From Owenweeksia sp. (GTDB taxonomy: Bacteria > Bacteroidota > Bacteroidia > Flavobacteriales > Schleiferiaceae), in contig NZNV01000017.1 in NCBI GenBank assembly GCA_002695025.1, positions 124,001 to 188,000 of the forward strand: a DNA stretch of 64,000 nucleotides, given 5' to 3'. The notes under the pieces were generated by a model. That model was not told the origin of the DNA. It searched no databases and saw nothing but the letters and a program-made list of their open reading frames with translations. Numbering within the stretch: position 1 is the first letter of the stretch; each line of letters starts with the position of its first letter. This document shows positions 13,240-26,764 of this stretch, one piece after another. A program made the position numbers and the translations under genes.

Positions 13240-15021
13240 ATGAGCAAATCAGCCCCCCGTATTTTTGACTTTTTATACGACCAATTAAAAAATAAACCTT
13301 TACCGGATGCCCTGGTGAATAAGATCAACGGAAAATGGGAGCCCGTTTCAACCGAAGAGTTTGTAAACAGGTCCCGGCAAATTTCAAGGGCATTGCTGAA
13401 AATGGGGGTGAAGGAACAGGAAAAGATTGCCCTGATTTCCTCTACCAATCGCCACGAGTGGAATATCATGGATATCGGTATACTGCAAATAGGGGCAGTG
13501 AATGTGCCGGTCTACCCCACCATTTCCAGTGAAGATTATGAATACATTTTCAATGATGCGGAGGTTACCTACTGCTTTCTTTCAGATCGTGAGCTGTATG
13601 ATAAAGTAGCGAAGATTCGGGATAAGGTACCCAGCTTGAAGGAAATCTATATTTTTAATGAAGAAGAGGGAATTAAAAACTGGAAAGAGGTCCTGAAAGC
13701 GGGGGAAGACGATTCCAACCAACCAGAACTGGAAAGCCGCATGAAGGCTGTAAAGAACGGTGACCTGGCCACACTCATTTATACTTCAGGAACCACGGGT
13801 AAACCCAAGGGGGTTATGCTTTCGCATAATAACCTGGTAAGCAACGTGCTGGATAGCAATGATCGTATTCCCACTTTCGAGAATTCAAAGGCTCTTAGTT
13901 TTTTGCCCGTATGCCACGTGTTTGAGCGTATGCTTACGTACCTCTATATTCAGAATAATATCCCTATCTATTTTGCAGAATCCATTGATAAGATCGGGGA
14001 TAATATCCGTGAAGTCAAACCCGAGATTTTTGCCCTGGTACCACGCTTACTGGAAAAGGTTTATGACCGGATCATGTCCAAAGGTGCCGAGTTAAGCGGT
14101 ATAAAGAAAAGACTCTTTTACTGGGCTGTGGAGCTTGGGGAGAAGTATGATCTGCAACATAATAGCTGGTGGTATAACTTCCGTTTGGGTATTGCCCGTA
14201 AACTGATCTTCAGTAAATGGCAGGAAGCATTGGGAGGTAACGTAAAAGTGATGGTTTCCGGAGGGGCTGCTCTCAACCCACGTTTAAACCGGGTTTTTAC
14301 GGCAGCCGGCTTTAATATACAAGAAGGCTATGGTCTCACCGAAACGTCCCCGGTAATTGCTGTGAACGGGCCTGACGTTGCCCGAAAACGGATCGGTACC
14401 GTGGGTTGGCCTATCAAGGACGTAGAAGTGAAGATAGCTGATGATGGAGAGATATGCTGTAAGGGCCCCAACGTGATGATGGGATACTACAAGCAAAAAC
14501 AAAAGACTGATGAGGTAATTGATGAGGACGGTTATTTCCATACCGGTGATATTGGTGAATGGGTAGAAGGCAAATTCCTCAAGATCACTGACCGTAAGAA
14601 GGAGATGTTTAAAACCTCCGGGGGTAAATATGTGGCTCCTCAATTGCTGGAAAATAAAATAAAGGAATCCCGTTTTATTGAGCAGGTTATGGTGATTGGC
14701 GAAGGCGAAAAAATGACGGCAGCCCTGGTACAGCCGGATTTTGAATTTTTGAAGTCATGGTGCCAGCGCAAGAATATCAGCTGTAGCTCCAATGAGGAAA
14801 TGGTGCAGAATGATCAGGTAAAGGAGCGCATTATGCAGGAAGTGGAAAGGATCAACCAGCATTTTGGAAAGTGGGAACGGGTTAAGCAAATACAACTTAC
14901 ACCGGATCAATGGTCTGTTGATGCCGGCCATCTTACTCCTAAGCTCAGTCTGAAACGCAGGAACATCATAGCGATGTACCCTGAACTCTACAAGAATATT
15001 TACGGACATACTAAAGAATAA
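13240..15021 (+). CDS. Long-chain acyl-CoA synthetase (AMP-binding)
   Basis: A 593-residue ligase that activates fatty acids to acyl-CoA through an acyl-adenylate. The AMP-binding signature YTSGTTGKPKGVMLSH begins near residue 180; the adenylation motifs GYGLTETSP and GEICCKGPNVMMGYYK and the C-terminal DGYFHTGDIGEW and ITDRKKEMFKTSGGKYVAP follow in order. The size fits long-chain (FadD/FACS-like) members. It precedes a secreted coiled-coil gene by six bases and lies upstream of the marR-fadN-fadA operon, supporting a role in fatty-acid degradation. Confidence 0.92.
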   Translation: MSKSAPRIFDFLYDQLKNKPLPDALVNKINGKWEPVSTEEFVNRSRQISRALLKMGVKEQEKIALISSTNRHEWNIMDIGILQIGAVNVPVYPTISSEDYEYIFNDAEVTYCFLSDRELYDKVAKIRDKVPSLKEIYIFNEEEGIKNWKEVLKAGEDDSNQPELESRMKAVKNGDLATLIYTSGTTGKPKGVMLSHNNLVSNVLDSNDRIPTFENSKALSFLPVCHVFERMLTYLYIQNNIPIYFAESIDKIGDNIREVKPEIFALVPRLLEKVYDRIMSKGAELSGIKKRLFYWAVELGEKYDLQHNSWWYNFRLGIARKLIFSKWQEALGGNVKVMVSGGAALNPRLNRVFTAAGFNIQEGYGLTETSPVIAVNGPDVARKRIGTVGWPIKDVEVKIADDGEICCKGPNVMMGYYKQKQKTDEVIDEDGYFHTGDIGEWVEGKFLKITDRKKEMFKTSGGKYVAPQLLENKIKESRFIEQVMVIGEGEKMTAALVQPDFEFLKSWCQRKNISCSSNEEMVQNDQVKERIMQEVERINQHFGKWERVKQIQLTPDQWSVDAGHLTPKLSLKRRNIIAMYPELYKNIYGHTKE

Positions 15022-15027
15022 TCCTGA

Positions 15028-15792
15028 ATGAAAACTATGGGAAAGGCTCTCCTTTTGGGCCTTTTAATCAGTGGTTCCTGTTTGCAGGCACAATCCAAAA
15101 GCGAGTTAAAGGAACGTCTTGCACTGCTTGAATCACAGGTAGATCAGCTTAAAAAAGCTTTGATCAGTGTAAATAATGAGAATAAATCCCTCAAAGCGAA
15201 GGCGGGAGCTACAGAAAAACAACCTAGGGCGGAAGTAAAGTATCAGAACTGTGACAGGCTTAAAGATACTATTGATGAGCAGCGGGAACAGATCCGTTTT
15301 CTCCAGGAAGAACTATACCGTGCACGCCTGGCCAAGGCTGAGCGTATTATGCCGGCCCAGCTTAAGAGACAACACTTTACGGTACACAACGCATCAGTGC
15401 GCGATCGTTTGGATAAAGCCTACTACGAGCATTACCTGGGCAATTGCTTGCGGGTAAGTAATATACAAAGGCTCTTTTCAGAGGATATCATTATAGAGTT
15501 TGAGAAAAACCCTTATGAACACCGGTTTGCAGGATTTTTAAGGCATCGCTATACCCCTGAGATGGGTAAAGATGAATATTCAATGCAACGGATAGAGGGA
15601 ACCTATACATGGGATGAGGAGTTTACCAGTTTGCACATAAATAATCTGGATAACAAAGCGGTGGATATCACCATCCGCTATGAAGATGAACGTGAACTTT
15701 ACAATGAAATTAGCGGCTCCGAGAGGGATCTTGCTCTTATTTCAACCCATTATGGTAACGTACAGGAATTTTCGTTTGTACGTTGCAAGTAA
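15028..15792 (+). CDS. Secreted coiled-coil protein of unknown function
   Basis: A 254-residue protein with a signal peptide (MGKALLLGLLISGSCLQAQ), then a coiled-coil region (about 25-55 and 75-108; KSELKERLALLESQVDQLKK and LKDTIDEQREQIRFLQEEL), then a C-terminal region of about 140 residues rich in charged and aromatic residues (NPYEHRFAGFLRHRYTPEMG). No family was recognised. It begins six bases after the acyl-CoA synthetase stop. Its stop codon falls inside the marR operator palindrome, so the end of the gene and the start of the next operon's control region overlap. Confidence 0.6.
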   Translation: MKTMGKALLLGLLISGSCLQAQSKSELKERLALLESQVDQLKKALISVNNENKSLKAKAGATEKQPRAEVKYQNCDRLKDTIDEQREQIRFLQEELYRARLAKAERIMPAQLKRQHFTVHNASVRDRLDKAYYEHYLGNCLRVSNIQRLFSEDIIIEFEKNPYEHRFAGFLRHRYTPEMGKDEYSMQRIEGTYTWDEEFTSLHINNLDNKAVDITIRYEDERELYNEISGSERDLALISTHYGNVQEFSFVRCK

Positions 15793-15814
15793 ATATTATG
15801 CGCGCATAATATTT
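15791..15814. promoter_or_regulatory. 24-bp perfect palindrome, operator of the marR-fadN-fadA operon
   Basis: A perfect inverted repeat with core TATTATGCGCGCATAATA (15794-15811). Its centre is at 15802.5, 17.5 bases before the -7 box TACTTTTG (15820-15827), so it covers the -33 region. The same core occurs once more, upstream of the acyl-CoA dehydrogenase at 24853-24878. Most likely the binding site of the MarR-type protein encoded just downstream. The stop codon of the preceding gene lies within the palindrome. Confidence 0.8.
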
Positions 15815-15819
15815 TTACG

Positions 15820-15827
15820 TACTTTTG
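15820..15827 (+). promoter_or_regulatory. -7 box of the marR-fadN-fadA operon
   Basis: TACTTTTG matches TAnnTTTG exactly. The predicted transcription start is about 15834, some 20 bases before the TTG start of marR. The operator lies immediately upstream. Confidence 0.65.
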
Positions 15828-15854
15828 ATGCACACCTTGTAATTCTTTCAGGCA

Positions 15855-16292
15855 TTGAAACCCGAGGAAACCGTTGATTTTCATATTAAATACACCTGGC
15901 AGAACATTGCTAAGATGTATAACGAATTAGCTGCCGGTTACGGAACTACAATGGCTACCGGCTATGTTCTGTTGAATATTGATATGGATGAGGGTACTCC
16001 CTCCACTTCTTTGGGCCCAAAAATGGGTATGGAAGCCACTAGTCTTTCCCGCATACTCAAAACCATGGAGGAGAAAGAACTGATTTACCGTAAAAAGAAC
16101 CCGGCTGATGGGCGTAGTGTACTCATCTTTCTCACAGAATTTGGTAAGGAAAAGCGGGAAGATGCTAAAAATGCGGTGATTGAGTTCAATAAAGCTGTTT
16201 TTTCCAATGTTCCTGAACAAAAGCTGGAAGTTTTTTTTGAAGTAATACGCAAGGTGAACGAATTGATATCCAATCGAAAAATATATTCCTGA
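15855..16292 (+). CDS. MarR-family transcriptional regulator
   Basis: A 145-residue winged-helix regulator starting with TTG. The helix-turn-helix and wing region includes MGMEATSLSRILKTMEEKEL and IYRKKNPADGRSVLIFLTEFG, with the conserved DGR of the MarR wing. It is the first gene of an operon with fadN-like (five bases apart) and fadA-like genes and is preceded by a 24-bp palindrome, so it probably represses the operon and is released by a fatty acyl-CoA or similar ligand (inference). A second copy of the operator before fadE suggests that gene is also its target. Confidence 0.9.
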   Translation: MKPEETVDFHIKYTWQNIAKMYNELAAGYGTTMATGYVLLNIDMDEGTPSTSLGPKMGMEATSLSRILKTMEEKELIYRKKNPADGRSVLIFLTEFGKEKREDAKNAVIEFNKAVFSNVPEQKLEVFFEVIRKVNELISNRKIYS

Positions 16293-16297
16293 GGACC

Positions 16298-18703
16298 ATG
16301 AAAAAAACTATTAAAAAGGTGGCAGTGCTGGGTTCCGGTATTATGGGGTCCCGTATTGCATGCCATTTCGCCAACATAGGTGTAAAGGTTTTACTGCTTG
16401 ATATGGTGCCACGTGAGCTTACGGATGCTGAAAAGTCCAGAGGCCTGTCACTGGAAGATAAAGTAGTACGCAACCGCATTGTAAACGAAGCGCTGCAAAG
16501 CACGCTTAAGAGCAATCCTTCACCCATCTACGACAAGGATTTTGCGAGCCGTATCGCCACAGGAAATTTTGATGATGACCTGGAAAAGATAAAGGATTAT
16601 GACTGGGTCATTGAGGTGATAGTGGAGCGCCTGGACATCAAGAAGCAAATGTTTGAAAAAGTAGACCGCTTCCGCAAGGAAGGTACTTTTATATCCTCAA
16701 ACACTTCCGGTATACCCATTCACCTGATGGCCGAGGGGCGCAGTGACGATTTTAAGAAGTATTTCTGTGGAACGCACTTCTTTAACCCGCCACGCTACCT
16801 GGAGTTGCTGGAAATCATACCTACTCCCCATACTGATAAGGAAGTGGTGGATTTCCTTATGCATTATGGAGATGTTTACCTGGGCAAGACCACAGTGTTG
16901 TGTAAGGATACTCCCGCCTTTATTGCTAACCGTGTAGGGATCTTCGGTATTATGGATCTCTTTAACAGCGTTCAGGAGCTTGGGCTGTCCGTAGAAGATG
17001 TGGATAAGCTCACCGGACCGTTGATCGGTAGACCTAAATCTGCTACTTTCCGCACTGCGGATGTGGTGGGATTGGATACCCTGATCCACGTAGCTAACGG
17101 TTTGCACGAGGCTGCTAAGGATGATGAGCGCAGAGAAGTTTTTAAACTCCCTGATTTCCTCCGGAAAATGCAGGAGAACAATTGGCTGGGATCAAAATCC
17201 GGTCAGGGTTTTTATAAAAAAGTTAAAGGAGACGATGGGCAAAGCGAGATACTTTCGTTAGACCTCGATACGCTGGAATATACTCCACAGCAGAAATCGA
17301 AATTTCCCGTATTGGAACAAACCAAGCCTATTGATGACGTAAAAAAGCGTTTTAAAGTACTGATCGGTGGAAAGGATAAGGCCGGGGAATTTTATCGTAA
17401 ATCCCTGGGAGGTTTGTTCGCCTATGTGTCCAATCGTATTCCTGAGATTTCGGATGAATTATACCGGATAGATGAGGCCATGCGTGCCGGTTTTGGCTGG
17501 CAGCACGGGCCCTTTGAAATATGGGATGCTGTAGGTTTGGAAAAAGGTCTGGAACTTATTGAACAAAGCGGGCATAAAGCAGCTGGCTGGGTTAATGAGA
17601 TGAAACAGGCCGGTGTTAATTCTTTTTATGAGGTAAAGGAAGAGATATTGCATTACTATTCCATTCCGGATGAAAAGATGGTAGAGGTGCCGGGTATTCG
17701 CAACTTTATAATCCTGGATCACATACGACCTACCAAAACGGTATGGAGTAACGATGAGTGCAGCGTTGAAGACCTCGGAGATGGTATTCTGAATATAGAG
17801 TTCCGCTCCAAGATGAACTCATTGGGAAGTGGTGTCCTGTCGGGTATCAATAAAGGGATTGAACTGGCAGAGAAAGATTTCCGGGGGGTGGTCATCGGTA
17901 ACCATGGTCAGAACTTTTCAGTAGGAGCTAACCTCGGGATGATCTTTATGATGGCTGTTGAGCAGGAATATGATGAACTCAATTTTGCCATTAAATACTT
18001 CCAGGATACGATGATGCGTGTACGCTATTCGAGTATCCCCGTAGTGGTGGCACCGCATACCATGGCCCTGGGTGGGGGGTGTGAAATGACCCTTCATGCA
18101 GATGCCGTTCAGGCAGCTGCAGAAACGTATATAGGCCTGGTGGAGTTTGGTGTGGGAGTGATCCCGGGTGGTGGTGGAACCAAAGAACTCACGCGTAAAG
18201 CCTCCCAACGTTATGTTAAGGATGATGTGGAGTTGAACGCTTACCGCGAGAACCTTATCAAGATTGCACAGGCCAAAGTCTCTACATCTGCCGAAGAAGC
18301 CTTTGATCTGGGGTTCCTAGTTCGTGGCCGTGATGGCATAAGTATGAATAAACGCAGGCAAATTGCGGATGCAAAAGCACGTGCGATAGCCTTGGCAGAG
18401 TCCGGCTACCACATGCCGGTTAAGGAGAAGGATATTAAAGTGCTGGGGAAAGAAGCCTTAGGAGCCTTTGTGGTGGGTGCCCACCAGATGTTGGAAGGAG
18501 GTTATATCTCGGAGTATGAAAAGAAAATGGTGGAAAAGCTGGGTTACGTAATGGCCGGGGGTGCGCTCAGTGAGCCGGCCTATGTGTCTGAACAATATTT
18601 GCTTGACCTGGAAAGAGAGGCGTTCCTGAGCCTTTGCAGCGAAAAGAAAACGCTGGAGCGGATCCAGCATATGCTGAAAACCGGGAAACCGCTTCGTAAT
18701 TAA
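16298..18703 (+). CDS. 3-hydroxyacyl-CoA dehydrogenase / enoyl-CoA hydratase, FadN-like
   Basis: An 801-residue two-part beta-oxidation enzyme. The N-terminal NAD-binding domain has GSGIMG at residues 12-17, and the dehydrogenase catalytic region GTHFFNPPRYLELLEIIP follows. A second dehydrogenase C-domain lies at about 300-400, and the C-terminal third is an enoyl-CoA hydratase domain with MALGGGCEMTLHAD and EFGVGVIPGGGGT. The order (dehydrogenase first, hydratase last) matches Bacillus FadN and Bacteroidota homologues, not Escherichia FadB/FadJ. It is the second gene of the marR operon; the thiolase follows after 15 bases. Confidence 0.93.
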   Translation: MKKTIKKVAVLGSGIMGSRIACHFANIGVKVLLLDMVPRELTDAEKSRGLSLEDKVVRNRIVNEALQSTLKSNPSPIYDKDFASRIATGNFDDDLEKIKDYDWVIEVIVERLDIKKQMFEKVDRFRKEGTFISSNTSGIPIHLMAEGRSDDFKKYFCGTHFFNPPRYLELLEIIPTPHTDKEVVDFLMHYGDVYLGKTTVLCKDTPAFIANRVGIFGIMDLFNSVQELGLSVEDVDKLTGPLIGRPKSATFRTADVVGLDTLIHVANGLHEAAKDDERREVFKLPDFLRKMQENNWLGSKSGQGFYKKVKGDDGQSEILSLDLDTLEYTPQQKSKFPVLEQTKPIDDVKKRFKVLIGGKDKAGEFYRKSLGGLFAYVSNRIPEISDELYRIDEAMRAGFGWQHGPFEIWDAVGLEKGLELIEQSGHKAAGWVNEMKQAGVNSFYEVKEEILHYYSIPDEKMVEVPGIRNFIILDHIRPTKTVWSNDECSVEDLGDGILNIEFRSKMNSLGSGVLSGINKGIELAEKDFRGVVIGNHGQNFSVGANLGMIFMMAVEQEYDELNFAIKYFQDTMMRVRYSSIPVVVAPHTMALGGGCEMTLHADAVQAAAETYIGLVEFGVGVIPGGGGTKELTRKASQRYVKDDVELNAYRENLIKIAQAKVSTSAEEAFDLGFLVRGRDGISMNKRRQIADAKARAIALAESGYHMPVKEKDIKVLGKEALGAFVVGAHQMLEGGYISEYEKKMVEKLGYVMAGGALSEPAYVSEQYLLDLEREAFLSLCSEKKTLERIQHMLKTGKPLRN

Positions 18704-18718
18704 GAACAGAAAAAATTA

Positions 18719-19906
18719 ATGGGAATCATGCAAGAAGCTTATATAGTTGCCGCTAAAAGAACTGCTGTAGGTAAGGCCCCTCGTGGAGTGTTCCGCTTTA
18801 CCCGTCCTGATGACCTGGCGGCAATGGTCATACAGAATCTGCTGGAAGAAGTTCCGGCCCTGGACAAAGAACGCATCGATGATGTAATAGTAGGAAACGC
18901 AATGCCGGAAGCCGAACAGGGCCTCAACGTGGGAAGATTGATCTCACTGATGGGCTTGCAAACCGAAAAGGTACCCGGGGTTACGGTAAACCGCTATTGC
19001 TCATCAGGTATCGAAACCATCGCCATAGCTACGGCCAAGATCAGAAGTGGTATGGCGGACTGCATCATTGCAGGGGGAACCGAAAGTATGAGCTATATCC
19101 CCATGGGGGGCTTTAAGGTCACCCCTAATTATGGAGTTGCCAAACAACATGCGGACTGGTATAATAATATGGGGCTTACCGCTGAAGCAGTGGCCGAAAA
19201 ATATAAGGTAAGCCGGGAGGATCAGGATGCTTTTGCCCTGCGCTCACACCAAAGAGCCTTAAAAGCTATAGAAGAGGGTAGATTCAAAGAAGAAATTGTG
19301 CCCATTGAGGTTGAAGAAAATTACCTGGATGAAAACGAAAAGCGCCAAAGCCGTGCCTATACAGTAGATACCGATGAAGGCCCTCGTAAGGATACTTCTT
19401 TGGAAGCTCTTTCACGGCTCAGGCCGGTCTTTGCTCAAAAAGGAAGTGTTACTGCGGGTAATTCCTCGCAAACCTCCGATGGAGCAGCTTTCACTATTGT
19501 AATGAGTGAAAAGATGGTAAAGGAGTTGGGTTTACAGCCCATAGCTCGTTTGGTGTCTTATGGTGTGGCTGGCGTAGAACCCCGCATTATGGGCATTGGT
19601 CCGGTAAAAGCTATTCCTAAGGCTTTGGATATGGCGGGGATGCAACTGAAGGATATAGAAATTATAGAACTCAACGAGGCTTTTGCTTCCCAATCTCTGG
19701 CGGTAGCCAGGGAATTGGATATTAATCAGGATATACTGAACGTAAACGGGGGCGCTATTTCCATGGGGCATCCACTAGGGTGCACCGGAGCTAAGCTTAC
19801 TGTTCAGGCTCTGCATGAATTAAAAAGAAGAGGACAAAAATACGGTATGGTTACCATGTGCGTAGGAACCGGGCAGGGAGCTGCCGGCATTTACGAAATG
19901 ATGTAA
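18719..19906 (+). CDS. Acetyl-CoA acyltransferase (thiolase), FadA-like
   Basis: A 395-residue thiolase that cleaves 3-ketoacyl-CoA. Three thiolase signatures are present: the acyl-accepting Cys in [10 protein letters not shown] (residue 94), [15 protein letters not shown] with the active-site His, and the C-terminal [14 protein letters not shown] cysteine. The start may be ATG 18719 or ATG 18728 (MQEAYIV), the latter giving a more typical N-terminus. Third gene of the marR-fadN-fadA operon. A strong terminator follows 20 bases after the stop, so the operon ends here. Confidence 0.94.
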
Positions 19907-19924
19907 AGGTGATTCCAATCCTGT

Positions 19925-19955
19925 AAAAAGCCCCGCTATAAGCGGGGCTTTTTTA
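19925..19955 (+). terminator. Terminator of the marR-fadN-fadA operon
   Basis: An 11-bp stem (AAAGCCCCGCT/AGCGGGGCTTT) with a three-base loop, followed by a T run. It separates the operon from the unrelated genes that precede fadE. Confidence 0.9.
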
Positions 19956-20143
19956 TTCCTGAATAATTCCTTAGTGACGTTTGGTTTAATGATTATTAGC
20001 TTTTGCAGTCCTTTTTTTTGAATTCATTTGCAAAAAATAGTACAGTAAGTTGATAAGCGTGATGAAATAAAATAAGATAATCCTCTGGTTTGAAATAGTG
20101 AGAATTTAGGTTGTAATATTCGGTTTTTTGAGAGGAAAGGGAG

Positions 20144-20177
20144 ATTCTAGTTTAGCCTCATCACTAAAAACTAGAAT
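20144..20177 (+). promoter_or_regulatory. 5'-UTR hairpin just before the CDP-alcohol phosphotransferase start
   Basis: Two perfect 10-base arms (ATTCTAGTTT and AAACTAGAAT) flank a 14-base loop and end three bases before the ATG at 20181, so the stem would mask the ribosome binding site. It has no T-run, so it is not a terminator. A TAATATTC box at 20114-20121, 21 bases after a TTTG, could be the promoter. The rest of the gap from 19956 holds no gene I can support. Confidence 0.4.
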
Positions 20178-20180
20178 ACC

Positions 20181-20786
20181 ATGAAATGGAACATCCCACA
20201 ATTATTGATCATGGCGCGTTTTCTGATGGCGCCAGTGATGTTGATCACCGCATGGAATTACCAGGAGAAGGCTACCTGGTTGATTGTTTTTTTATTGTAC
20301 CTGGGCTTTATGTCAGATGTTTTTGACGGTATAATCGCCCGTCAGCAAGGAATATCCAGTGCAAAGTTGCGAAGAATAGATAGCCAGGTTGACATGATCT
20401 TCTGGCTAAGTGCTGGTTTTTCTCTTTGGTTTATAGCCCCGGAGATTATTCTCAGGAATAAAGGAGGTATATCACTCATCTTCATAATGGAGGCTTCCTG
20501 TTATCTCGTGAGCCTTTTGAAATTCGGTAAAGAAACCTGTACACATGCCTGGCTATCCAAGTTTTGGGGTATCACCCTATTAGTAGCTTTTACGGCTATG
20601 TTGGGTTTCAGAAGTGATGGTTTTTTCTACCATCTCTGCCTGGTAGCGGGTGTGATTTCGCACCTGGATCGCATTGCCATTACACTTATTCTTCCTCAAT
20701 GGACGCATGATGTACCCAGTGCTTATCACGCCTGGTTGATCAGCAAAGGCAAGGATTTCAAAAGATTTAAACTTCTTAATGGTTAA
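20181..20786 (+). CDS. CDP-alcohol phosphotransferase family membrane protein
   Basis: A 201-residue polytopic protein. The signature is DGIIAR, eight residues on, then RIDSQVD, but the glycine of the consensus (DGx2ARx8Gx3Dx3D) is a leucine (KLRRIDSQVD). All catalytic aspartates remain. From memory, a Bacteroidota subfamily shares the LRRxDSxVD variant, so the change may not mean inactivity. The headgroup substrate is unknown. It lies between the fad operon terminator and a T9SS protein, with a hairpin immediately before its start, and may be expressed alone. Confidence 0.75.
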   Translation: MKWNIPQLLIMARFLMAPVMLITAWNYQEKATWLIVFLLYLGFMSDVFDGIIARQQGISSAKLRRIDSQVDMIFWLSAGFSLWFIAPEIILRNKGGISLIFIMEASCYLVSLLKFGKETCTHAWLSKFWGITLLVAFTAMLGFRSDGFFYHLCLVAGVISHLDRIAITLILPQWTHDVPSAYHAWLISKGKDFKRFKLLNG

Positions 20787-20925
20787 GAAATGAATACTGG
20801 TATTCAACTACAAAGAGAGGAAACCGGGAATTCCCCGCTTTTCTGGCAGGCCAGTTACATCTTGCAATTGCAGGTGTTAGAAACTTACAACGAGATCTAT
20901 TGATTTGTCCTTAAATTAAATTCAT

Positions 20926-20950
20926 AAAAACAGCCTCCGGGCTGTTTTTT
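20926..20950 (+). terminator. Rho-independent terminator
   Basis: AAAACAGCC and GGCTGTTTT flank a four-base loop and a T-run follows. It ends the transcript of the CDP-alcohol phosphotransferase gene. Confidence 0.8.
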
Positions 20951-21033
20951 TATTTATTTTCAACTAGATGGCCCTTTTTCAGCGTATTTCGCGTAATGCT
21001 TTAATGAAAAGGCCGCTATATCGAAGCACAATT

Positions 21034-22758
21034 ATGAAGATCAATAGCATCCTGTTATTTTTGATTTTTTCCACGCTAACTGTGGGTCAGATCCCTTTTC
21101 CCTCTACTCAAGCTATCTGGGTGAATACGGTTTATAGTATTTTGGAGCAACAGGGAGCCCCTCCTCAACATCTGCTTAGCCAGGTTGAAAACCTCTGTCT
21201 CAGCGATAAAGACACTATCATTTACGGTAAAAAGTATAAAAAACTCAGGGTTTGCGCAGGTCCTTATCGCGGTGCCATAAGGCAGGCTGGACAAAGGGTT
21301 TATTTCATTCCTCCCGGTGCTTATCTCGAATATATATTGTACGATTTCGGGGTGAATATAGGAGATGTCATTTCCAATGTATACATGGAAGAAGCATCTA
21401 ATTACGGATTACCGGTTATCGGTCAACTGGAAGTAGAAGCCATTGATTATGCCTGGATAGGCGGGGAATACCGTAAAAGAATACATTTTCAGGGAGCTCA
21501 GGGCGGCAGATGGATAGAAGGAGTGGGTTGTACACGAGGTTTTCTTAAGAGTCCTTTTTCCAGCAATCTTTCTGTATTGAATAAACTGGAGTGCATGAGT
21601 GAAAATGATACTTCACGCTATCCAGTCTTGTCGCTTCACCCTTGTAACCTGCCCACCCTATCCCCGGTAAACTATTACGTAGATATCTACGCGGAAGTGA
21701 AAAATGGCAATGGCGATCCTCTTCCCAATTACGCTGTCTATATAGGCGGAGGTTCTGGCCAGGGAGGTGAGCCGCTCAAAAAACTAATCACGGGTCCCAA
21801 CGGAAAGATTCATGATTCGCTTATCCCGGGTAATACCCCAAGCCTGTATGCTTATGTGTACGATTGTTTTGCTGAGAAAGTGATGGATTTTGAAATTGCA
21901 ATGGCTAATACAGAATCGGACAGTACTCACTTTAAGTTTGTACTTACCTGCCCCGGTGATACCTGTGACGTTGTCCTTTCGCATTCACTAGTGGATGCTG
22001 ATGCCAGTTTATTCCGCTTTGAATATGAAGCTGTAGGGGATGCCCCCCAGTCTGCAAATCCCACATGGACTTTCTCGGATGGGGAAATTTTTAGTGGTAA
22101 ATCAGGAATTGAAAGGATTGTAGAGCCTGGTAATTTCACATATTGCGTAGATCTGGGGTGCGGACCCAGTACTTGCCAAAACATGTATGCGGACCCTAAT
22201 TGTAGGGCAGAGTTTTTCTTAGATACCGTGAACTCCATCGTTTTCAACGGGAATATTATTTTCTGGAAAAACACCAAACCAGGTACCCAATATTCCTATG
22301 AGTGGAATTTTGGGGATGGCGCTATCTCCAACAGTACGTATCCTGTACACAGCTACAGTGCTTCAGGGCATTATAACATATGCCTGACTATTACGTACAA
22401 CGATGGTGTAAAGAATTGCACACATACGTTTTGTGATACCATATTCTTTGAAAAAGCTCATCTGACCTTCCAGGTAATGGATCCGGCACTGATCTCAGTT
22501 GAGGATCCTTTGAATGACCAGGATCAGTATACCATATTCCCTAACCCTGCCTCAGAAGAGTTTACAATCAGCTGGAATGAGCATGAAAAAATGATCAGGG
22601 TTTTGCTGTATGAAATTAACGGTCATTTGGTAAGGGAATGGCCGGGAGTAGCCGAAGGCAAACAGATCATCCGGCTGGATGATATCCCTGCCGGTACTTA
22701 TATAATTAAAGCTATTATGCAGGATGCCGCGAAAACCGTCCCGCTGATAGTTGAATAA
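21034..22758 (+). CDS. T9SS-exported PKD-domain protein with C-terminal sorting domain
   Basis: A 574-residue secreted protein starting at ATG 21034 (signal peptide KINSILLFLIFSTLTVGQ). The middle is beta-rich with many cysteines and PKD-like motifs (WTFSDGEIFSG and YEWNFGDGAISNSTYPVHSY). The last 80 residues are a type A T9SS sorting domain: YTIFPNPASEEFTI, then LLYEINGHLVREW and PAGTYIIKAI. Export through the T9SS and surface attachment or release are therefore expected. Substrate or partner is unknown. An in-frame ATG at 20968 would add 22 residues before the signal peptide and is rejected. Confidence 0.85.
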   Translation: MKINSILLFLIFSTLTVGQIPFPSTQAIWVNTVYSILEQQGAPPQHLLSQVENLCLSDKDTIIYGKKYKKLRVCAGPYRGAIRQAGQRVYFIPPGAYLEYILYDFGVNIGDVISNVYMEEASNYGLPVIGQLEVEAIDYAWIGGEYRKRIHFQGAQGGRWIEGVGCTRGFLKSPFSSNLSVLNKLECMSENDTSRYPVLSLHPCNLPTLSPVNYYVDIYAEVKNGNGDPLPNYAVYIGGGSGQGGEPLKKLITGPNGKIHDSLIPGNTPSLYAYVYDCFAEKVMDFEIAMANTESDSTHFKFVLTCPGDTCDVVLSHSLVDADASLFRFEYEAVGDAPQSANPTWTFSDGEIFSGKSGIERIVEPGNFTYCVDLGCGPSTCQNMYADPNCRAEFFLDTVNSIVFNGNIIFWKNTKPGTQYSYEWNFGDGAISNSTYPVHSYSASGHYNICLTITYNDGVKNCTHTFCDTIFFEKAHLTFQVMDPALISVEDPLNDQDQYTIFPNPASEEFTISWNEHEKMIRVLLYEINGHLVREWPGVAEGKQIIRLDDIPAGTYIIKAIMQDAAKTVPLIVE

Positions 22759-22862
22759 AACGAAAACAAACCAATATAAAATGAAGGACCAGAATCTGTT
22801 TTTTTTTAATGGTGTGTGAAGGTCGCACCCACTAAGGGTGAATGATCGTCATACATATTTGT

Positions 22863-23432
22863 ATGCAGAAGGATTTAGACAAAATTTTAAAAAGATGCCT
22901 GAAAAATGATCAGCGGGCGCAGCATGAACTCTATCATCTGTGCTTCGAACGCCTTATGCGTATCTGCGTCAAATTTCAGCGGAACCGGGAAGATGCAGCA
23001 GCTCTTCTGAACGATGGTTTTTTAAAGATTTTACTGAATCTCAAGAAGTATGATTTTGAAAAAGATTTTTTCCCGTGGATATCAACTATTATGGTGCGTA
23101 CGGCAATAGATCAATATAGAAAGTCAAAGGACTATAAGGAAACAATAGACTTACACGTGGATGTGTATACCTATTCCGGTCATGATGATGCAGTGGTGTA
23201 CAACGATGTGATAGATAGAATGGAACAGGTTGAAGTGGATAAAATGCTTCACAGTTTACCGGAAAACGAAAAGGTGGTATTCAACATGTTTGAAATGGAG
23301 GGTTACGCTCACAAGGAAATTGCAGAAATGCTGAATATTTCGGAGCGCAGCTCTAAACGATATCTCCAGTCTGCCAAGGCAAGGTTAAAAGAAATGCTCG
23401 AAAAAAAAACGGAAATTAAAAAGGTAGTTTGA
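22863..23432 (+). CDS. ECF-type RNA polymerase sigma factor
   Basis: About 189 residues from ATG 22863 (MQKDLDKILK); an upstream ATG at 22842 would add seven residues. Region 2 carries RAQHELYHLCFERLMRICVK and FFPWISTIMVRTAIDQYRKS; region 4 carries LPENEKVVFNMFEMEGYAHK and LNISERSSKRYLQSAKARLK with its DNA-reading helix. It overlaps the next gene by one base (TGATG), so it is translationally coupled to a membrane protein that is probably its regulator. Confidence 0.9.
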   Translation: MQKDLDKILKRCLKNDQRAQHELYHLCFERLMRICVKFQRNREDAAALLNDGFLKILLNLKKYDFEKDFFPWISTIMVRTAIDQYRKSKDYKETIDLHVDVYTYSGHDDAVVYNDVIDRMEQVEVDKMLHSLPENEKVVFNMFEMEGYAHKEIAEMLNISERSSKRYLQSAKARLKEMLEKKTEIKKVV

Positions 23433-24817
23433 TGTCAGGAGAGTGGAATAAACTGAAGGAAAAGCTTGAGGCCAGGGATTTGCAACCCAGGGCATCTGAC
23501 TGGGATAAGATGAAAACGGTCATCTCCCGGCACCCTGATCTTATGGTAATCCCCATGTATAAGCGCCCCGCTTTCAAAGGTTTTATGGCAGGTATGGCCC
23601 TGTTGATAGGTGGCGGTTTATGGTGGTTCTCCGGCAATGAAAGTGCGTCCGGTGATGAAAATAATGTGGCTGGCAGTAACGAGGTGGTGCAGGAAGCCGA
23701 GAAGCCTTCATTGGAGCCTCAGTTGAGTGGTGCCCAAAACCCCGGTTCCAAGATTGAGCAGGCCGGTAATATATCGCTAAACAAAGACGCTGCGGATGAT
23801 GAGCAAACGATGAGTAACGGTTCAGATCAATTGGCTGGAGCAAACAGCAGTTCTGAAGATATAGCAGCAAGTAATGTACTTAGGTCTGGCACAGCAGACC
23901 AGGCTTCAGAGACTGTGGATGGTCCTGAATTCATGGCATCGGTGAGTACAACGGCTGGTAATTCAGTTGCTGGTTCATCTGTTCAGCAGGATATGTCCTT
24001 GGCGGTAGGAATAAGTCCTGCCAAGAATGTGGAAGATGAGGCTTGGGATCTATTCCGCAAGTCAGTACACTTTACAGATATAGTGCCTGAAAATGAACTG
24101 CGGGATATAGCTGAAGAAAAACCCGATGAGGAGATAACCTCTTTTCTGAATCCAGCTACCGGCTTCAGGTTGGGAAGAGTGTATGCCATGGCTGATTATG
24201 CCCCTTACCTTCAAAAAGACCGTGCTTATGCTATTGGTGCCGGAATGGAGCTGGAGTTCCTGAGTCAGGGTTTTATTGCCCAAACCGGGTTATACCTTAC
24301 CCATCATAATTATCCGTATTACATTACCGACAGTACCTCTGTGTTAGATGTTACTTCTGAGGCAATAAGCCGCCTTGATTCGAGCTGGAAAATAGATGGA
24401 CCCTTTCAGGGGCACTATGAATATTTCACCGTCTATGACACCATTTATGATACAACCATAACTTATCAGCAAAATAACAGGGCAGCACACCTTGCTTACC
24501 GGTATCTTGAAGTCCCGGTGATGTTTGGGTATCGCTGGAAGAGTCGCACCGCTCACTGGAATTTTGACCTCACTGGGGGTATTATTGCCGGCTGGCTTAA
24601 CTACGATGGTTCCAATGGTGAATCCGGGGCAACGCTGAATGCGCTTAAACTGGATGTGGCATTAAGGCCGTCTGTCTCATACCAGTTCTACTCCGGGTGG
24701 AGTGTAGTAGGGCGCGTAGGTTGGAGATATAATGTATTGGATCATACCAATATGGCGAATTCCACCAAAGCTGCTAATTTTCCTTTTCTCCAACTGGGCG
24801 TGGCATACAGCTGGTAA
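23432..24817 (+). CDS. Putative anti-sigma partner with barrel-like C-terminal domain
   Basis: 461 residues from ATG 23432. The first 46 residues are charged and could be cytosolic (MSGEWNKLKEKLEARDLQPR); one membrane segment follows at about 47-67 (AFKGFMAGMALLIGGGLWWF). Residues 68-235 are a low-complexity acidic/serine-rich linker, and the C-terminal 230 residues look like an outer-membrane beta-barrel with strands such as RAYAIGAGMELEFLSQGFI and FLQLGVAYSW at the end. Coupling to the ECF sigma gene makes an anti-sigma role likely. How one chain places a helix in the inner membrane and a barrel-like domain beyond it is not clear. Confidence 0.65.
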   Translation: MSGEWNKLKEKLEARDLQPRASDWDKMKTVISRHPDLMVIPMYKRPAFKGFMAGMALLIGGGLWWFSGNESASGDENNVAGSNEVVQEAEKPSLEPQLSGAQNPGSKIEQAGNISLNKDAADDEQTMSNGSDQLAGANSSSEDIAASNVLRSGTADQASETVDGPEFMASVSTTAGNSVAGSSVQQDMSLAVGISPAKNVEDEAWDLFRKSVHFTDIVPENELRDIAEEKPDEEITSFLNPATGFRLGRVYAMADYAPYLQKDRAYAIGAGMELEFLSQGFIAQTGLYLTHHNYPYYITDSTSVLDVTSEAISRLDSSWKIDGPFQGHYEYFTVYDTIYDTTITYQQNNRAAHLAYRYLEVPVMFGYRWKSRTAHWNFDLTGGIIAGWLNYDGSNGESGATLNALKLDVALRPSVSYQFYSGWSVVGRVGWRYNVLDHTNMANSTKAANFPFLQLGVAYSW

Positions 24818-24852
24818 CCGGGTGCTTTTCTTTGGTAGACAATTTTCCTGGG

Positions 24853-24878
24853 TTTTTATTATGCGCGCATAATAAAAA
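24853..24878. promoter_or_regulatory. 26-bp perfect palindrome, second fatty-acid operator
   Basis: A perfect inverted repeat with the same 18-bp core as the site at 15791-15814 (TATTATGCGCGCATAATA, here 24857-24874). Its centre is at 24865.5, again exactly 17.5 bases before a -7-like box (24883-24890). This suggests control of the acyl-CoA dehydrogenase by the MarR-type protein at 15855. Confidence 0.8.
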
Positions 24879-24882
24879 ATTG

Positions 24883-24890
24883 TAATTTAG
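24883..24890 (+). promoter_or_regulatory. -7-like box of the acyl-CoA dehydrogenase gene
   Basis: TAATTTAG differs from TAnnTTTG at one position. The spacing to the palindrome equals that of the marR promoter. Confidence 0.5.
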
Positions 24891-24949: not shown

Positions 24950-26764
24950 ATGTCTGACAATACTGTACAAGCAACCCGATTTCTCAAAGGAGGCGAATTC
25001 CTGATACGTGATGTTTCCTCTGACGAAGTTTTTATTCCGGAGGATTTTAACGAGGAACAAAGGATGATGGCCGAGGCCACCACCGAGTTTATCGAAAAAG
25101 AAGTAATCCCTGAACGTGAGCGTTTTGAGAAAAAGGATTATGACTTTACTCTCAGCCTGATGAAGAAAGCAGGCGAGCTAGGTTTATTGGGAATTTCCGT
25201 AGCTGAAGAATACGGAGGCCTGGGCATGGATTTCAATACATCCATGCTGGTGTGTGACCGTATTTCAGGGGTTTCAGGTTCATTATCCACGGCCTATGGC
25301 GCACATACCGGTATTGGTACCTTGCCGATATCTCTCTACGGGACTGAAGAACAGAAGAAAAAATACCTCCCTAAACTGGCTACCGGTGAATGGATGGGGG
25401 CTTATTGCCTTACTGAACCGGGTGCCGGTTCAGATGCCAATTCCGGTAAATCCAAAGCTGAATTAACGGCAGATGGTAAGCACTACAAGATTAACGGACA
25501 GAAGATATGGATATCCAACGCGGGTTTTGCCAATCTCTTTATTGTGTTTGCCCGTATTGAGGATGATAAGTACCTGACCGGTTTTATTGTCGAGCGGACT
25601 TTTGACGGGATAAGCTTTGGCGAAGAAGAAAATAAATTAGGGATTCGTGCTTCATCTACCCGTCAGGTGTTTTTTAATGACTGCCTGGTACCGGTAGAAA
25701 ATTTGTTGGGTGAGCGTAACGGTGGATTCAAGATTGCAATGAATGCCCTTAATTATGGGCGGATCAAATTAGCCGTGGCTACTCTCGATGCTGCGCGTAG
25801 GGTGCTTACCCATGCTGTACAGTATGGCAACGAAAGAAAACAGTTTGGCCAAAGTATTACCGAATTCGGTGCTATTCAGCAAAAACTGGCCGACATGGCC
25901 ACCTATACCTGGGTGGCAGAAAGTGCTACCTATCGTGCGGGACAGGATATAGAAAATCACATTGCCCGTTTGAAGGAGGAAGGTGCCAGTCTCAGCGAAT
26001 CCAAACTTAAAGGTGTGGAGGAGTACGCCATAGAATGTGCCATTATGAAGGTTTTTGCTTCCGAGGTAGGGAGTTATGTATCTGATGAAGGGGTGCAGAT
26101 TTACGGTGGTATGGGCTACAGTGCTGATGCACCTATGGAGTCAGCTTACCGGGATGTGCGTATAGCCCGTATTTACGAAGGTACTAATGAGATAAACCGC
26201 ATGCATAGCGTGGGTATGCTTCTCAAAAAGGCTTTGAAAGGCGAGTTGGACCTTATGTCTCCCGCGATGAAGATTGGCGGTGAGCTTATGGAGATTCCTT
26301 CCTTTGATACCCCTGATTACTCAGAACTCTTCAGCGAGGAAAAGGAAATACTCGGGAAACTTAAAAAATCCATCCTCATGGTTGCTGGAAAAGCCGTGGA
26401 AAAGTATGCGATGCAGATCGAAGAAGAGCAAGAGTTGCTTATGGCTGCCGCCAATATGATCATTGAGGTATACGCTGCTGAAAGTGCTTTGCTCAGAGCT
26501 GAAAAGCTTTCTAAACAAAGGGGCGAGGAAAAAACGCAAACGGAGATAGATATGACCCGTCTTTTCCTATACCGGGCGGTAGAGAATGTTGGTCGCGCAG
26601 GACGTGAGGCTATTTACAGTTTTGCGGAGGGTGATGAGCAGCGCATGCTGCTGATGGGACTTAAACGTTTCACAAAATTGCAAAACCCGATCAATGTAAC
26701 GGAAACCCGCAGAAGAATAGCCAAAAGGGTGGTTGAAGCCAATCGCTATCCTTTTACTATATAA
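24950..26764 (+). CDS. Acyl-CoA dehydrogenase, FadE-like
   Basis: A 604-residue flavoenzyme for the first step of beta-oxidation. The N-terminal and middle domains have YGGLGMDFNTSMLVCDRIS, MGAYCLTEPGAGSDANSG and KIWISNAGFA; the FAD/acyl site includes YGRIKLAVATLDAARR, and the catalytic region is IYGGMGYSADAPMESAYRD then ARIYEGTNEINR. The extra C-terminal 170 residues fit the long-chain (VLCAD/Bacillus FadE) branch. It has its own operator and promoter and is followed by a terminator, so it is monocistronic, apart from its usual partner genes. Confidence 0.93.
   Translation: MSDNTVQATRFLKGGEFLIRDVSSDEVFIPEDFNEEQRMMAEATTEFIEKEVIPERERFEKKDYDFTLSLMKKAGELGLLGISVAEEYGGLGMDFNTSMLVCDRISGVSGSLSTAYGAHTGIGTLPISLYGTEEQKKKYLPKLATGEWMGAYCLTEPGAGSDANSGKSKAELTADGKHYKINGQKIWISNAGFANLFIVFARIEDDKYLTGFIVERTFDGISFGEEENKLGIRASSTRQVFFNDCLVPVENLLGERNGGFKIAMNALNYGRIKLAVATLDAARRVLTHAVQYGNERKQFGQSITEFGAIQQKLADMATYTWVAESATYRAGQDIENHIARLKEEGASLSESKLKGVEEYAIECAIMKVFASEVGSYVSDEGVQIYGGMGYSADAPMESAYRDVRIARIYEGTNEINRMHSVGMLLKKALKGELDLMSPAMKIGGELMEIPSFDTPDYSELFSEEKEILGKLKKSILMVAGKAVEKYAMQIEEEQELLMAAANMIIEVYAAESALLRAEKLSKQRGEEKTQTEIDMTRLFLYRAVENVGRAGREAIYSFAEGDEQRMLLMGLKRFTKLQNPINVTETRRRIAKRVVEANRYPFTI

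Follow-up and report, generated by a model that had tools for sequence, protein, structure and literature searches.

Within a 64,000-nucleotide stretch of Owenweeksia sp. DNA (assembly GCA_002695025.1, contig NZNV01000017.1, positions 124,001 to 188,000 of the forward strand; hereafter the window, with positions counted from its first letter), two perfect palindromes precede genes predicted to function in beta-oxidation, which raises the question of which protein recognizes them. A sequence-only reading of this DNA proposed one regulator of a fatty-acid regulon, most simply the MarR protein encoded at 15855-16292. Based on comparisons among related genomes, we consider it very probable that both palindromes are operators of this MarR protein, which would repress its own operon (marR-fadN-fadA), co-repress fadE, and be relieved by a ligand. 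The three central elements are:

15791..15814, no strand assigned (.): putative operator 1, a 24-bp perfect palindrome with arms of 12 bp; core at 15794-15811
24853..24878, no strand assigned (.): putative operator 2, a 26-bp perfect palindrome with arms of 13 bp; core at 24857-24874
15855..16292, + strand: marR, 145 amino acids, the proposed repressor of the regulon; TTG start; Pfam MarR 4.6e-11

The description of palindromes of 24 bp and 26 bp that share an 18-bp core was confirmed, including their coordinates, and the core is identical at both positions. Operator 1 starts at the stop codon of the upstream open reading frame (ORF; 15028-15792). No other perfect palindrome of at least 18 bp occurs in the 64-kb window, and a search of the window with the 18-bp core, allowing up to three mismatches, returned only these two matches, vs. 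0.02 expected based on shuffles; the sequence-only reading likewise saw no further copy in the window. The sequence-only reading also suggested a whole-genome search for the core, as its occurrence at many unrelated promoters would count against a single regulator; in the 4.46 Mb of the genome assembly (41 contigs), we identified only two exact copies, both in the window, and thus no such spread over unrelated promoters. Four further places (L003-L006) have three mismatches to the core, vs. one place in the reversed-pattern control. Three of them overlap or abut coding ORFs and no kept counterpart was found, and we do not claim them as regulon sites. As proposed, each palindrome precedes one or more beta-oxidation genes; besides MarR, the flanking genes were confirmed as:

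16298..18703, + strand: fadN-type 3-hydroxyacyl-CoA dehydrogenase / enoyl-CoA hydratase
18719..19906, + strand: fadA-type thiolase (acetyl-CoA C-acyltransferase)
24950..26764, + strand: fadE-type acyl-CoA dehydrogenase (NCBIfam NF058590, 775.9 bits vs. cut-off of 600)

We then compared 110 loci encoding relatives of this MarR, 30 from genomes of the order Flavobacteriales and 80 additional named loci. In 105 of the 110 loci, the 12-bp core TATGCNNGCATA is found no more than 300 bp upstream of the orthologous marR. Within the same distance, the full motif TAYTATGCNNGCATARTA occurs with up to three mismatches in 104 loci (74 of them exact) and with no more than one mismatch in 90 loci, vs. 3 of 11,000 dinucleotide shuffles. 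The 772 kb of the 80 named loci contain only nine further sites at this last threshold, all in Aquimarina loci; these second sites (L103, L107, L111, L112, L120, L123, L124, L140, and L143) have one mismatch and lie ~2.0-2.15 kb upstream of marR. A fadN gene follows within 900 bp downstream of marR in 104 of the 110 loci, is not found there in five, and could not be seen in one locus that ends too early; fadA is present in all 69 loci with enough downstream DNA. In four of the five loci without an adjacent fadN, the core still precedes marR, suggesting that the site is linked to marR and not to fadN, and pointing to MarR itself as the protein that binds it.

Among the loci where marR is detached from fadN, it is followed by a different gene in L031-L033 and in L035 by a short ORF with a zinc ribbon, judged by eye to resemble a transposase; the core is retained in three of the detached marR loci L031-L033 and L035. 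Three loci of genus g9 (L019, L020, and L023) have marR-fadN without the palindrome; in its place, half-sites of the TTATTATG type are repeated near the start codon.

The motif and the protein also occur together across genomes. Within the order, the exact TAYTATGCNNGCATARTA motif was identified in 139 of 296 genomes, vs. none for a reversed control, and a MarR orthologue in 190. Both are present in 136 genomes, the motif alone in three (G046, G073, and G291), MarR alone in 54, and neither in 103, which corresponds to an odds ratio of 86, or 44 without the 50 tiny symbiont genomes. In a sample of the phylum, 52 of 395 genomes have the motif (control: 1 of 395) and 73 have MarR; 51 of the 52 motif-bearing genomes encode MarR, including all six outside the order, which belong to one family. 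The two samples overlap and contain related species, so p-values overstate the evidence. Comparison on all of these scales (105 of 110 loci, four of five detached loci, 136 of 139 genomes in the order, and 51 of 52 in the phylum sample) supports the proposal that one regulator, most simply this MarR, acts on the fatty-acid regulon.

The protein itself has the expected architecture. Its MarR winged-helix domain matches PF01047 with 42.9 bits (cut-off 24.6), and the predicted monomer adopts a winged-helix MarR fold, including the N- and C-terminal helices that serve dimerisation in this family, with a mean predicted local distance difference test (pLDDT) score of 94.0. In a fold search against the PDB, the best match has a Z score of 16.5, and the best 50 matches are all MarR-type regulators or homologues. 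In the recognition helix, residues S63, L64, and R66 do not vary among 23 diverse MarR proteins. Eleven NCBIfam families matched the sequence, none at its cut-off (best 48.5 bits vs. 200), and no named MarR equivalog was reached. The gene starts with TTG instead of ATG, and the aligned starts of several relatives are likewise TTG.

How binding would affect transcription depends on where the palindromes lie relative to the promoters, for which two boxes were identified in the window:

15820..15827, + strand: -7 box TACTTTTG of the marR promoter, full fit to TAnnTTTG
24883..24890, + strand: -7-like box TAATTTAG of the fadE promoter, one mismatch to TAnnTTTG

Both palindromes are centred 17.5 bp upstream of a -7-type box, and the fadE promoter of genus-mate G002 has the same box letters, TAATTTAG, at the same distance. 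A TATG sequence in the left half of each palindrome, 19 bases upstream of the -7 box, may serve as a -33 element. PMC9723704 places the TAnnTTTG consensus at -12 to -5; on that numbering, operator 1 lies at about -41 to -18. In the marR promoters of relatives, 87 of 104 sites have their centre 17 or 18 bases from the box. At fadE-type sites this distance is 12-15 bases in five of eight, and three lack a full box; at etfB sites it is 27-30 bases in 10 of 20 and 14 in one, and nine lack a full box. The 17.5-bp geometry that the sequence-only reading described is therefore found at marR and fadE in the window and at marR in relatives, but it is not a rule for all sites.

Under the mechanism that we propose, a MarR dimer would bind TAYTATGCNNGCATARTA, and at operator 1 it would cover the -33 position and block RNA polymerase, resulting in autorepression of marR-fadN-fadA together with co-repression of fadE. 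When fatty acids arrive, a ligand derived from them, most likely long-chain acyl-CoA, would free the DNA of the dimer, and acyl-CoA dehydrogenase, hydratase/dehydrogenase, and thiolase would then be produced jointly. The choice of long-chain acyl-CoA is a guess from the target genes, with a precedent for a CoA-thioester ligand in CouR (5cyv). The etfBA genes, whose product is the electron acceptor of FadE, would probably fall within the same regulon. At etfB, where 27-33 bases separate the putative operator from the box and the site is ~12-16 bp further upstream, the mode of action may differ from occlusion of the -33 position.

The sequence-only reading described a regulon of two sites; both sites held up, and the regulon appears to be wider. 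The core lies upstream of both marR and fadE in the four nearest genomes (G001, G002, G005, and G018), suggesting that the paired sites are an inherited arrangement. Outside the window, the Owenweeksia genome has a weaker core site, TATGCATGCATA, in the etfB-pdhB intergenic region (L147, G000:C21:55688), centred 33 bases upstream of the box (about -45.5). Its counterpart in G002 (L261) lies at nearly the same distance from etfB (74 vs. 75 bases), and G011, G020, G029, and G017 likewise retain the etfB site. A second weaker core site (L146, G000:C3:72961), also outside the window, lies ~100 bp before a gene for an outer-membrane receptor with TonB-plug and CarboxypepD domains, and it is kept in G002 (L155). 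None of the 10 core places of G005 was found to be an etfB site, and no etfB neighbour was found among the three core places of G001 or the four of G018; one of the G005 sites faces an alpha/beta hydrolase gene. On this comparative basis, the regulon of the Owenweeksia genome probably also includes etfBA and the TonB-dependent receptor. As in a FadR-type regulon, the candidate operators related to beta-oxidation are unlinked, at marR-fadNA, fadE, and etfB.

In relatives, we selected 57 sites away from marR from the listed places; the selection was not random, and some sites have up to three mismatches to the 18-mer of the window. Twenty of these sites face etfB, seven fadE, one another acyl-CoA dehydrogenase gene, and two fadD. 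Ten neighbours other than etfB, fadE, and fadD were compared with Pfam. Besides the other acyl-CoA dehydrogenase just counted, they are two outer-membrane proteins and a FadL-like porin (L157, with a FadL match below the gathering score, 27.9 vs. 29.7), a secretory lipase and two esterases, and three further enzymes (a short-chain dehydrogenase, a nitronate monooxygenase, and one that is KAS III-like). The identified targets are mostly degradation genes, and one site (L189) precedes the KAS III-like gene. These neighbours suggest that the regulon of relatives also includes fadD, a FadL-like porin, and secreted lipases. The fadD-type genes with a site in front are those of two relatives (L156 and L197); in the window, no site precedes a gene resembling AMP-binding long-chain acyl-CoA ligases (13240-15021) that lies two genes before marR.

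Several observations weigh against assigning the palindromes to this MarR. The compared species are related and hence are not independent samples, and no exact motif occurs in 54 of the 190 genomes of the order that encode MarR. In three genomes of one genus (G010, G026, and G034), marR-fadN is present and the recognition helix is conserved, yet the 300 bp upstream contain no core site. Conversely, G046 and G291 keep exact sites before lipase- or esterase-like genes (L160 and L162; L200 and L201), and neither a MarR orthologue nor a FadN match was found in these two genomes; their sites would be relics or be read by another protein. The third genome with the motif and no MarR, G073, has a single site, at etfB; a contig end truncates fadN in its 370-contig assembly, from which the marR stretch is probably missing. 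Of the 57 sites selected in relatives, 27 are at other genes or at none that we recognized, some without an obvious link to lipids. In the Owenweeksia genome, the 12-bp core alone occurs at eight places vs. six in the control; we therefore rejected it as a means of listing regulon members, and the etfB and TonB receptor sites of this genome rest on conservation only. Finally, the position of the etfB site does not fit simple occlusion of the -33 element.

Three other explanations were considered. The exact sites in G046 and G291 would be expected if the palindrome were the operator of another, unlinked regulator, such as a TetR-type fatty-acid sensor, with marR as one of its targets, and regulators of the GntR and TetR types do govern fatty-acid degradation in other phyla. 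However, the motif tracks this MarR in both the order and the phylum and remains upstream of marR where fadN is not adjacent, and autoregulation is usual among MarR proteins; judged from the distributions of the motif and this MarR, with no search aimed at co-occurring TetR or other regulators, we regard an unlinked regulator as quite improbable. The position of the etfB sites instead raises the question of whether MarR acts as an activator, either at all sites or at etfB while repressing marR and fadE. In 10 of the 20 etfB sites, a distance of 27-30 bases to a full TAnnTTTG box places the centre at about -39.5 to -42.5; it falls near -41.5 in several Flavobacterium-type genomes and at about -45.5 (33 bases) in the Owenweeksia genome. 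At marR, however, a site over -41 to -18 is in a typical repressor position, a geometry shared by 87 of 104 loci, and activation by MarR is unlikely, albeit less so than an unlinked regulator. The palindromes might also have arisen by chance or have a structural role, such as that of a transcription terminator or repeat element; in favour of this, they are perfect inverted repeats, and the first starts at the stop codon of the upstream ORF. Between their arms, however, there is no spacer that could form a hairpin loop, and the genome has only two exact copies with bases conserved across families; we rejected a terminator or repeat element based on this conservation and copy number, and give this explanation almost no weight.

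If the palindromes are operators of this MarR, as we favour, a broader picture can be offered tentatively, with somewhat less than even confidence. A MarR-type sensor of ancient origin, predating the order, may be the general switch for use of exogenous lipids in Flavobacteriales and some relatives, coordinating lipase secretion, outer-membrane uptake, activation, beta-oxidation, and electron transfer flavoprotein through one strictly conserved operator. This operator would work in two promoter geometries, one with occlusion of the -33 element (marR and fadE) and one with its centre near -41.5 to -45.5 (etfB), where its action may be of another kind.

In soil as well as in water, flavobacteria count among the major degraders. 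With a strictly conserved putative operator and a proposed autoregulated repressor, their genes for lipid use, including uncharacterised receptors and lipases, could be found by means of the operator, and the regulon is open to direct experimental testing in a laboratory strain. In Flavobacterium psychrophilum, beta-oxidation genes are strongly induced by fish mucus and plasma, indicating that the pathway is regulated in a flavobacterium; the excerpted text of that report names no regulator (PMC9723704). Our literature searches returned no description of this regulator or operator, nor of any for flavobacterial fatty-acid degradation. The repressor would be of an ordinary kind, and its widely conserved regulon is apparently unreported.

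Known systems offer partial parallels. FadR of Escherichia coli is of the GntR type, whereas FadR/PsrA of other bacteria are of the TetR type. The logic proposed here, in which acyl-CoA relieves repression of scattered beta-oxidation genes, resembles theirs; it differs in that the regulator belongs to the MarR family and that ligand and repression are putative. FabT of Streptococcus pneumoniae is a MarR-family regulator of lipid metabolism with a palindromic operator, and it governs fatty-acid synthesis. Its DNA complex (6jbx) shares the MarR fold with the predicted monomer (Z score 14.9, root-mean-square deviation [rmsd] 2.7, 140 residues aligned); however, identity in the structural alignment is 13%, and the operator described here lies at degradation genes. 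CouR of Rhodococcus jostii, which is among the better PDB sequence matches to this MarR (E 3.3e-07), acts in a pathway for aromatic substrates and has 20% identity; nevertheless, its structure with bound p-coumaroyl-CoA (5cyv) has the same fold (Z score 15.1, rmsd 3.4, 141 residues aligned), and its CoA-thioester ligand provides a precedent for the acyl-CoA sensing that we propose.

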